Shown here one piece after another: positions 45,889 through 48,839 of a stretch of 64,000 bases of DNA; position 1 is the stretch's first letter, and every line of letters begins with the position of its first letter. The notes under the pieces were generated by a model. The model was not told the DNA's origin and did not search any database. It saw nothing but the letters and a program-made list of their open reading frames with translations. Origin of the DNA: Alicycliphilus denitrificans K601 (lineage in GTDB: Bacteria; Pseudomonadota; Gammaproteobacteria; Burkholderiales; Burkholderiaceae_C); the NCBI RefSeq assembly GCF_000204645.1, contig NC_015422.1, forward strand, positions 1,753,001-1,817,000, written 5' to 3'. Made by a program: the position numbers and the translations under genes.

Positions 45889-46667
<779 letters not shown>

Positions 46668-46672
46668 CCAGC

Positions 46673-47275
46673 ATGCAACGCTTCGACCTCGCGGCCGTGC
46701 CGCCCACTCCCTGGAAGAACGGCGGCGGCCACACGCGCGAGCTGGCCTGCTGGCCGCCCGGCGCGGGCATGGATGGCTTCGAGTGGCGCGTGAGCGTGGC
46801 CACCATCGCGGCGCCGGGGCCGTTCTCGGCCTTCGCGGGGGTGGACCGGCAGATCATGCTGCTCGATGGCGACGGCGTGCACCTGAGCGCGCCGGGCGTC
46901 GGCCTGGACCACCGGCTGGACCGGCGCTGGCGGCCGTTCGCCTTCCCGGGCGACGTGGCCGTGGGCTGCCGCCTGCTCGGCGGCAGCTCCACCGACTTCA
47001 ACCTCATGCTGCGCCGCGGCCGCTGGCGCGGCAGCGTCGAGGTGGCGCGCGATGCGCGCGTGCCCGGCAGCACGCCCGCGGGCCTGTGCATGGTGCTCGC
47101 GGGCCGCTGGAGCCTGGGCGGCGACATGCTGGAGCCGGGCCAGGGCCTCTGGTGGAGCGCCGCCGGGGCCGGCTCCGCGCTCGCGCCGCATGCGCGGCAG
47201 GGCGGCGAGGCGCCCGTGCTCGCCTGGGTGGCGCTCATGCCGTGGATTCAAGAGAAAAACGCCTCCAGCGCTTGA
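46673..47275 (+). CDS. hutD: HutD family protein
   Basis: This 200-residue HutD/DUF886 protein has a cupin-like fold and begins MQRFDLAAVPPTPWKNGGGHTREL, with the family motif WKNGGGxTRE. HutD is conserved in hut operons. It has been proposed to act as a governor that limits pathway flux, not as an enzyme, but this remains debated. The ATG at 46673 is chosen, and a TTG at 46664 overlapping the ATPase stop is possible. Its last codons and stop lie within a hairpin repeat (47265-47289), so the C-terminus (EKNASSA) is encoded by repeat sequence. Confidence 0.93.
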   Translation: MQRFDLAAVPPTPWKNGGGHTRELACWPPGAGMDGFEWRVSVATIAAPGPFSAFAGVDRQIMLLDGDGVHLSAPGVGLDHRLDRRWRPFAFPGDVAVGCRLLGGSSTDFNLMLRRGRWRGSVEVARDARVPGSTPAGLCMVLAGRWSLGGDMLEPGQGLWWSAAGAGSALAPHARQGGEAPVLAWVALMPWIQEKNASSA

Positions 47276-47321: not shown

Positions 47322-47600
47322 ATGGACGATACCGATCCCTTCACCGCGCCTAGGGTGCATCGACATTCAAACACCCCCGCCGCCAAGGCCCTGGGCTGTC
47401 CATGGCTAGGCGCGAGCCACGCCGTGTATCGGGATACACCAGCGGCGAGCAACGACGCCAGGGGCAGCCCAGGGCCTTGGCCCGGAGGGTTGCCCCGCCC
47501 GGCCCGCCATGCGTCGTTGCTCCTCGGTTGCTGGTGCCTACCAGCGTCCTCCTCGCGCTTGGCCTGGCGGGCCGGGCGGGGCAACGGCGGGGGTGTTTGA
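47322..47600 (+). other. Open frame through the element, in phase with hutI
   Basis: An ATG at 47322, preceded by the purine-rich GAGAGAACC, begins a frame (MDDTDPFTAP) that enters the inserted element and stays open for 92 codons. It ends in a TGA that abuts the hutI ATG (TGAATG), and it is in the same phase as hutI. The first ten codons may be the original start of hutI, cut off by the insertion, or a coupled leader. The rest looks like translated element sequence, not a protein family. Confidence 0.4.
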
Positions 47601-47621
47601 ATGTCGATTCACCCTTGCGCC
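47346..47621 (+). mobile_element. MITE-like element made of two inverted stem-loop units, between hutD and hutI
   Basis: The core at 47352-47615 (264 bp) has terminal inverted repeats of 31 bp (30 matches; 47352-47382 and 47585-47615) starting AGGGTG. Inside are two arms. The left arm has a perfect 17-bp stem (47382-47398 with 47465-47481) and the right arm a perfect 21-bp stem (47489-47509 with 47565-47585). The arm loops are related in inverted orientation, sharing GAGCAACGACGC (47447-47458, complement 47511-47522) and CACCAGC. The stems themselves have different sequences. A possible 5-bp duplication GCGCC lies at 47346-47350 and 47617-47621. There is no transposase gene. The right end contains the apparent hutI start codon. 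Confidence 0.7.
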
Positions 47622-48839
47622 GACGGCGTCTGGGAGGGCCTGCGCCTTGCCCCCGGCCTGGCCCGCGCCGACGTGGCCGTGGGCGCCGGCGAGCGCGCCA
47701 GCCTGGTCGTGCAGGGCGGGGTGCTGCGCTGGGTGGGCCCGTCCGCGGCCCTGCCCGCAGGCTACGCGCGGCTGGCGCGCCGCGACGGCGGCGGCCTGCT
47801 GGCCACGCCCGGGCTGGTGGACTGCCATACCCACCTGGTCTACGGCGGCCAGCGTGCCAACGAATTCGCCATGCGGCTGGCCGGCGCCAGCTATGAAGAG
47901 GTGGCCAGGGCCGGCGGCGGCATCGTCTCCAGCGTGCGCGCCACGCGCGAGGCGAGCGAGGACGAGCTGTTCGCGCTCGCGCTGCCGCGCCTGTCGGCGC
48001 TGCTGGCCGAGGGTGTGTGCGCCATCGAGATCAAGTCGGGCTACGGCCTGACCCTGGAACACGAGCGCAAGCAGCTGCGCGTGGCGCGCCGCCTGGGCCA
48101 GGCGCTGGGCGTGACGGTGCGCACCACCTTCCTCGGCGCGCACGCGCTGCCGCCCGAGTACGCCGGCCGCAGCCAGGACTACACCGACGCGGTCTGCGAC
48201 GAGATGCTGCCCGCGCTCGCCGCCGAGGGGCTGGTCGATGCGGTGGACGCGTTCTGCGAGCGCATCGCGTTCACGCTGGCCGAGACGCGGCAGGTCTTCC
48301 AGGCCGCGCAAAGGCTGGGCATCCCGGTCAAGCTGCATGCCGGGCAGCTCTCCGACATGGGCGGCGCGCAGCTCGCGGCGCGCCACGGCGCGCTCTCGTG
48401 CGACCACATCGAGCATCTTTCGCAGGAGGGCATAGACGCGATGAAGGCCGCCGGCACCGTGGCCGTGCTGCTGCCCGGCGCCTACTACACGCTGCGCGAC
48501 ACGCACCTGCCGCCCATCGCGCAGCTGCGCGCCGCGGGCGTGCCCATGGCCGTCTCGACCGACCACAACCCCGGCACCTCGCCCGCGCTGAGCCTGCTGC
48601 TCATGGCCAACATGGCCTGCACGCTGTTCCGCCTCACGGTGCCCGAGGCGCTCGCGGGCATCACCACGCACGCGGCGCGCGCGCTGGGCCTTTCGGACAC
48701 GCACGGCCTCATCGCGGCGGGGCGGCCCGCCAACTTCGTGCTGTGGTCCGTGGGCGAGGCGGCGGAGCTGGCCTACTGGCTCGGCCACAACCCGGCGCGC
48801 ACCATCGTGCGCCAGGGCCGCATCGTGAAAGGCGCGTGA
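47601..48839 (+). CDS. hutI: Imidazolonepropionase
   Basis: HutI hydrolyses imidazolone propionate to N-formimino-glutamate. This is a metal-dependent amidohydrolase of 412 residues with [14 protein letters not shown] (metal histidines), [12 protein letters not shown] and [12 protein letters not shown]. The ATG at 47601 lies within the right inverted repeat of the upstream element, so the first five residues (MSIHP) come from the element, and family similarity starts about [12 protein letters not shown]. The Shine-Dalgarno is only a G-rich run (GGGGGTG). Expression may depend on coupling to the frame that ends at 47600. Confidence 0.95.

Follow-up and report, generated by a model that had tools for sequence, protein, structure and literature searches.

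The hutI gene in the window, the 64,000-nt stretch of the Alicycliphilus denitrificans K601 genome analyzed here, has been entered by a MITE that has the tips of an IS5-type element and an inverted dimer of a one-strand-folding unit as its interior, a unit that, in its single-stranded folded form, probably serves the element. Sequence comparison showed this interior to be an inverted dimer of a unit that also occurs in distant bacteria, within MITEs whose ends differ. The common view of bacterial MITEs is that they are remnants of IS elements with arbitrary interiors. In the present case, one interior fold is common to MITEs that differ in their tips and is absent at the IS transposase loci examined, which suggests that small transposons bring along a functional nucleic-acid module of their own. 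The unit is a concrete, testable motif.

A MITE insertion within hutI

The MITE extends from position 47350 to 47617 of the window on the forward strand, both copies of the target duplication included, with its ends set by aligning the four copies in the genome and by reference to the empty site found in relatives. It is 268 bp long, corresponding to a net gain of 264 bp (88 codons), and the five ORFs that overlap it yielded zero Pfam matches. The terminal inverted repeats, long stems and shared loop words described in the initial annotation were all recovered in their places: 31-nt terminal repeats at 47352 to 47382 (forward) and 47585 to 47615 (reverse; 97% in the inverted-repeat search), inverted repeats at 47373 to 47406 and 47457 to 47490 (34 nt, 82%) and at 47489 to 47512 and 47562 to 47585 (24 nt, 96%), and 12-nt loop words at 47447 to 47458 and 47511 to 47522, which pair in inverted orientation (100%).

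On the forward strand, hutD occupies positions 46664 to 47275 (PF05962, E = 1e-47) and hutI, as now encoded, positions 47601 to 48839 (Amidohydro_1, E = 5.8e-19); the name of the latter (imidazolonepropionase) rests on the initial annotation and the hut context. Comparison with close relatives, which had been proposed along with that annotation, revealed an uninterrupted hutI start in the five closest that have the gene (L179 to L183; four congeners and one member of another genus), with 87 to 89% identity to the present hutI. The ATG of these genes corresponds to 47322, and their N terminus runs straight into ...APSADGVW (TPSADGVW in L183). The start is likewise uninterrupted in the more distant L184 and L185, that is, in seven of seven relatives listed and unambiguously in the five closest. 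By the same comparison, the original start (ATG at 47322) and the first codons, through the left CTAG, lie at 47322 to 47353 on the forward strand. Since the relatives are uninterrupted and the window flanks, once joined across the MITE, encode an N terminus matching theirs, this alignment shows that the MITE inserted at CTAG within hutI codons 10 and 11, duplicating CTAG. The GCGCC direct repeat, initially read as a possible target duplication, is real, but the joined flanks place it in the original target (GCGCCTAGCGCC); it is ruled out in that role, the true duplication being CTAG/TA.

An ORF is open from 47052 to the TGA at 47598 to 47600, and the frame of the old ATG at 47322 stays open through the MITE to this same stop, which abuts the ATG at 47601. 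The resulting TGA-ATG (47598 to 47603, forward strand), i.e., the stop of the entering frame followed by the present hutI start, lies in the right terminal repeat; this ORF reading agrees with the earlier placement of the hutI ATG within that repeat and with an element open in the hutI phase and ending in TGAATG. Comparative reading of the locus shows that the terminal repeat put its own ATG in frame with hutI, and we infer that 47601 is the start in actual use. The sequence TTTGAATG at TGA-ATG is kept in the other three MITE copies. The hutI case is thus one of a MITE end able to shift the start codon of a gene. In each of the four copies, both ends carry GGGGGTGTTTGAATG (window 47589 to 47603, and its mirror end), which combines a G-rich stretch with an outward ATG, a potential mobile start codon.

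The genome holds four full copies of the MITE, the other three being 90 to 91% identical to that in the window. CTAG stands on both sides of these three sister copies, whereas the window copy has CTAG on the left (47350 to 47353) and, on the right (47614 to 47617), what is now CTTG, an A-to-T change according to the four-copy comparison. Several copies, conserved ends and an empty site in relatives support the MITE-like mobile element that had been suspected. Far from being unique, a finding that the initial annotation had set against its own proposal, the sequence is represented by these four copies and by nine further unit sites (E ≤ 4.1e-4). A second empty site could not be demonstrated, the left flank of the copy at C1:4212489 being unconserved.

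The MITE tip TAGGGYGAATCGACATTCA also bounds an IS5-type element of ∼837 bp (C1:1525561-1526401), with agreement over the outer ∼18 bp of the left terminal repeat and a tip match in the right one. Two reading frames of this resident element match PF13340 (DUF4096) and PF01609 (DDE_Tnp_1), which are domains of IS4/5-type transposases, and we take it to belong to the IS427-like subgroup of the IS5 family. The MITE shares only its tips with this element (locus L222), the interior of which consists of transposase coding sequence and lacks the unit; derivation of the MITE interior from the IS5-type parent is therefore not supported. In a genome of the same family (G009), a lone tip, CTAGGCTGAATCGACATTCAAACACCCCCACC, lies between globin-like and AraC-like genes, named by eye (L015:1501-1533). 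The last codons of the AraC-like gene apparently come from this tip, which may be a solo end belonging to the MITE family of the window.

The folded unit and its strand

The unit is ∼80 nt long and consists of an outer stem of free sequence, an internal loop with AGG opposite AAC, both nearly fixed, a purine-rich helix of the G.A type, and an inner hairpin. Covariance model R1 located unit 1, sense, at 47392 to 47471 on the forward strand (65.3 bits, E = 1.1e-14) and unit 2, inverted, at 47498 to 47576 on the reverse strand (63.2 bits, E = 4e-14), both being among the 44 units from which R1 was built. They are separated by a 26-nt linker (47472 to 47497) with a CCC-NNN-GGG mini-hairpin. As RNA, the 268-nt MITE strand has a predicted folding energy of −200.7 kcal/mol (z = −14.45 against 200 shuffles); as DNA, the same strand scored −117 (z = −13.58, again against 200 shuffles).

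A paired outer stem, defined as at least 10 of 16 pairs in the best of three registers, was found in 105 of the 119 listed stretches that match the core pattern. Four of the others lie too near a contig end and ten are unpaired, six of these ten having loop lengths outside the 28 to 35 of the rest. When 71 dereplicated loci were compared without removing chance matches, pairing of the outer stem reached 76% in the right register versus 36 to 47% when shifted by 1 to 4. The 44 units gave a covariation score of 0.616, compared to 0.164 in shuffles and 0.11 to 0.25 with slid structures. Changes on both sides affected 327 cells versus 126 in shuffles; stem pairing among these units was 81.4%, falling to 29 to 41% upon sliding. 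Pairs with changes on both sides (22 of 27) were not above the shuffles (mean, 21.4), and the inner helix was only 65% paired.

The core columns of the unit alignment A2 are invariant by construction, because its members had to match the exact core pattern, to have no fewer than 9 of 14 stem positions paired, and to pass a loop-length filter and dereplication. Conservation was also read from 74 units outside the exact search pattern, nevertheless picked by the covariance model, in which AGG was 97 to 100% and AAC 91 to 100% conserved and most outer stem columns ranged from 34 to 59%. Selection appears to act on the fold itself, since the folded module recurs in small transposons with different ends and in many phyla; conserved loops and covarying stems likewise fit the two head-to-head units, selected for folding, that had been postulated from the window. 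Within positions 47489 to 47585, the window copy differs from its sisters (L056 to L058) in a block of four adjacent stem pairs, in both arms at once, a hint that, besides selection, one arm may have been copied from the other.

The types of stem mismatch are unequally represented. In 107 nonredundant units, G-T/T-G cells outnumbered A-C/C-A cells by 89 to 14, and the same count in the 43-unit pattern set, from which six loci judged to be chance matches (L068, L070, L105, L109, L134, and L136) had been dropped, was 37 versus 10. The bias persisted in 57 units for which loop words and loop length were the sole criteria (all 119 listed stretches minus the four near a contig end, loop length 27 to 38), with 51 versus 17 for this comparison and 69 versus 10 for G-A/A-G against C-T/T-C. 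Arm shuffling among these 57 units gave ratios of 87:68 and 107:69, respectively; without the three core-adjacent pairs, observed counts were 49:12 and 31:9, compared to ratios of 70:50 and 70:56 after shuffling. As the mismatch excess surpasses that of arm shuffling, G-T and G-A are tolerated in the fold of one strand beyond composition. The fold is thus shown, in statistical terms, to be kept on one defined strand, that reading AGGCGCGAG...GAGCAACGACGC.

Units are often arranged as inverted dimers. Among 100 loci (59 of the 119 listed by core pattern, 27 of 29 from the class survey, L267 to L295, and 14 of 30 from the second phylum, L296 to L325), 38 of 40 neighboring pairs ran sense then inverted (+ then −), the other two being one ++ and one −−. 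The spacer measured 24 to 28 nt in 29 pairs. The CCC-NNN-GGG linker, with a loop of 2 to 4 nt allowed, is common to 26 of the 29 dimers compared, that of the window included; the remaining three have, by eye, other self-complementary linkers. Because dimers run + then −, one unit that folds correctly lies close to the 5′ end of each strand. Elements of about 158 to 160 bp with a single unit occur too.

Spread of the unit and the tips of its carriers

The core pattern derived from the two loop words has at least 119 matching stretches in bacterial genomes. The 80 of these from which carriers were named include Cupriavidus, Pseudomonas, Azotobacter, Sphingomonas, Gallionellaceae, Lewinella, Myxococcales, and Bdellovibrionales, and also Elusimicrobia, Omnitrophota, Verrucomicrobia, Planctomycetota, Acidobacteria, and Eremiobacterota, many of the distant carriers being metagenome-assembled genomes. 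In a sample of 229 genomes from the class, 41 matched R1, the present one included (E ≤ 1e-4); in the phylum of G102, where G102 and G105 were carriers known beforehand, 20 of 99 did so. Unit copy numbers are lower bounds, because 20 (class) and 47 (G102 phylum) candidates per genome were scored.

In the present genome, R1 identified 17 sites at E ≤ 4.1e-4, two weaker matches being left out; eight lie in the four MITEs and nine elsewhere (C1 560890, 1516145, 1575173, 2209469, 2798271, 4320489, 4769373, 4823343, and 4895279). The nine have tips such as CTAGGGCCTGTTAACACTATGG and CTAGAAACGGTAGTTG, representing by eye at least three other tip types, and TA or CTAG is legible on both sides of six. 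These sites are best described as putative members of other MITE families with a common interior. Neither the window element nor the Cupriavidus element had a copy among the plasmids searched. A unit-bearing Pseudomonas element matched three plasmids, two from Azotobacter and one from P. aeruginosa, and searches with its flanks gave no empty site among the matches listed. Unannotated unit-bearing elements with the tip TAGGGTCTGTTGACGTTT were observed on Pseudomonas aeruginosa and Azotobacter chroococcum plasmids (L356:2999-3269 and L357:2999-3269).

Tips link these elements to different transposases. In Cupriavidus sp. IDO, the first 13 bases of the MITE tip are those of an element with a DDE_3 (IS630-type) transposase, the left end of which is not preceded by TA, and in a Lewinella genome 18 of 20 MITE tip bases match an IS630-type element flanked by TA. 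IS630-type parents with matching tips were found in two of seven genomes examined, and parents of unit-bearing MITEs of any kind in three of eight genomes checked. An automatic test for TA-flanked terminal repeats was passed by 33 of 80 loci versus 7 of 1,572 mismatched pairings, the repeat running past TA in about half of the 33. In a stricter version, which excluded loci with short flanks as well as the six chance loci, 19 of 67 loci passed versus 9 of 263. Loss of one TA accounts for some failures (e.g., L066) among those examined; not every unit need lie in a MITE. TA-flanked repeats were found at 3 of 20 PF13340 loci examined (of 30), all three in the present genome.

Possible function of the unit and known systems

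Resident IS transposases would move such MITEs in trans via their tips, and transposition in trans is well supported by shared ends, target duplication and empty site. The unit itself probably acts for the element rather than for the neighboring gene, as a folded single-stranded nucleic acid, which would be either RNA or DNA exposed in the course of replication or transposition. The inverted dimer would let it work in either direction, since either strand has, on its 5′ side, one unit that folds correctly. We favor this role at the level of the element because the unit is common to several tip types, absent at the searched IS loci, strand specific, often dimerized, and indifferent to the orientation of neighboring genes (56 single units). 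We give about even weight to its being an undescribed structured motif, adopted in inverted dimers, across bacteria, by nonautonomous transposons that use different transposases, and hence an accessory module independent of the transposase. Such a motif could be a single-stranded DNA element or an RNA that binds protein or cleaves itself.

Alternatively, the unit could work as RNA in host transcripts, in processing, stability or termination, with MITEs kept wherever they are helpful or harmless. A mismatch pattern specific to one strand, the great stability of the MITE strand as RNA, and dimers that offer a sense unit in either direction would all suit this function, for which the RNA roles described for NEMIS and ERIC in a review of small repeats (PMC2229807) set a precedent. 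It is tentative at best, however: single units showed no orientation bias toward adjacent ORFs, 12 being co-oriented and 11 counter-oriented of 56 (ORFs called crudely by length, and some units counted as single perhaps paired with one below threshold), and no Rfam family matches significantly. The lack of ORF-orientation bias does not discriminate DNA from RNA.

Presence of the unit in elements with either IS5 or IS630 tips could also mean that it is required for transposition, recognized as folded DNA by DDE transposases of both kinds. We consider this unlikely, since these transposases belong to different families and the unit is absent at 30 transposase loci (17 of 30 available for PF13340 and 13 of 15 for PF13358), bar one chance-level match of 12.8 bits (E = 0.7), so that IS elements do without it.

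Slightly less probable still is the absence of any function, with arms kept complementary by template copying from arm to arm in hairpins and a core reflecting common descent of old MITEs. The four-pair block that differs on both arms does resemble block copying more than stepwise compensation. Such copying could equalize the arms, yet it does not predict strand-asymmetric mismatches: G-T and A-C should be equal once composition is allowed for, and the observed counts are not. Nor does descent alone hold AGG and AAC nearly constant while stems vary, as in the 74 model-picked units.

REPINs are inverted dimers with one functional strand each. A REPIN-like origin, i.e., mobile hairpins moved on single-stranded DNA by a tyrosine (RAYT/Y1) transposase and captured by MITEs, is suggested by analogy with the unit dimers and by Y1_Tnp proteins in 18 of 20 unit-bearing versus 5 of 14 control genomes, but is very improbable, since no unit lies within about 1.5 kb of any of the 30 Y1_Tnp loci examined, out of 74 matches, the unit far exceeds the 20 to 40 bp of a REP, and the elements carry IS-type tips with TA/CTAG.

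No match to the unit was significant in Rfam: nine unit-bearing loci and the IS locus were without match, the L097 unit had none up to E = 5, and the best for the window region scored 14.3 bits (E = 2.5) against a gathering score of 35.6, so that no known RNA family is matched at that score. Literature searches by sequence word and topic retrieved no description of the shared core; subscription papers lay mostly outside these searches, so this is not proof of novelty. Among the closest descriptions are a MITE review (PMC10969869) and the MITE hairpins described in the Thiomargarita genome paper (PMC4853749).

The REP/BIME resemblance raised in the initial annotation extends to hairpin dimers and broad distribution, as portrayed in PMC3733652, where REPs are 20 to 40 bp long, are tagged by GTAG or CGTC, and, in the case of GTAG, adjoin RAYT genes. 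It was not borne out further: the present units are ∼80 nt long with a conserved internal loop, and their elements have IS-type tips and no Y1 linkage found at the loci examined. Caulobacter CIR elements likewise have two long hairpin arms and a linker, with a structure proposed to be conserved; by description alone, they differ in being ∼110 bp long, with GANTC at a loop, and partly MITE-like (PMC2229807). The window element comes close to RUP-type MITEs, exemplified by RUP with IS630-Spn1 as a bacterial MITE mobilized by a resident IS, which are short, noncoding and strongly folding, share tips with a resident IS, and use a TA-containing target, as outlined in the same source (PMC2229807). 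Unlike in RUP-type MITEs, the interior here is a dimer of a unit found with other tips, with other likely transposases, and in other phyla.
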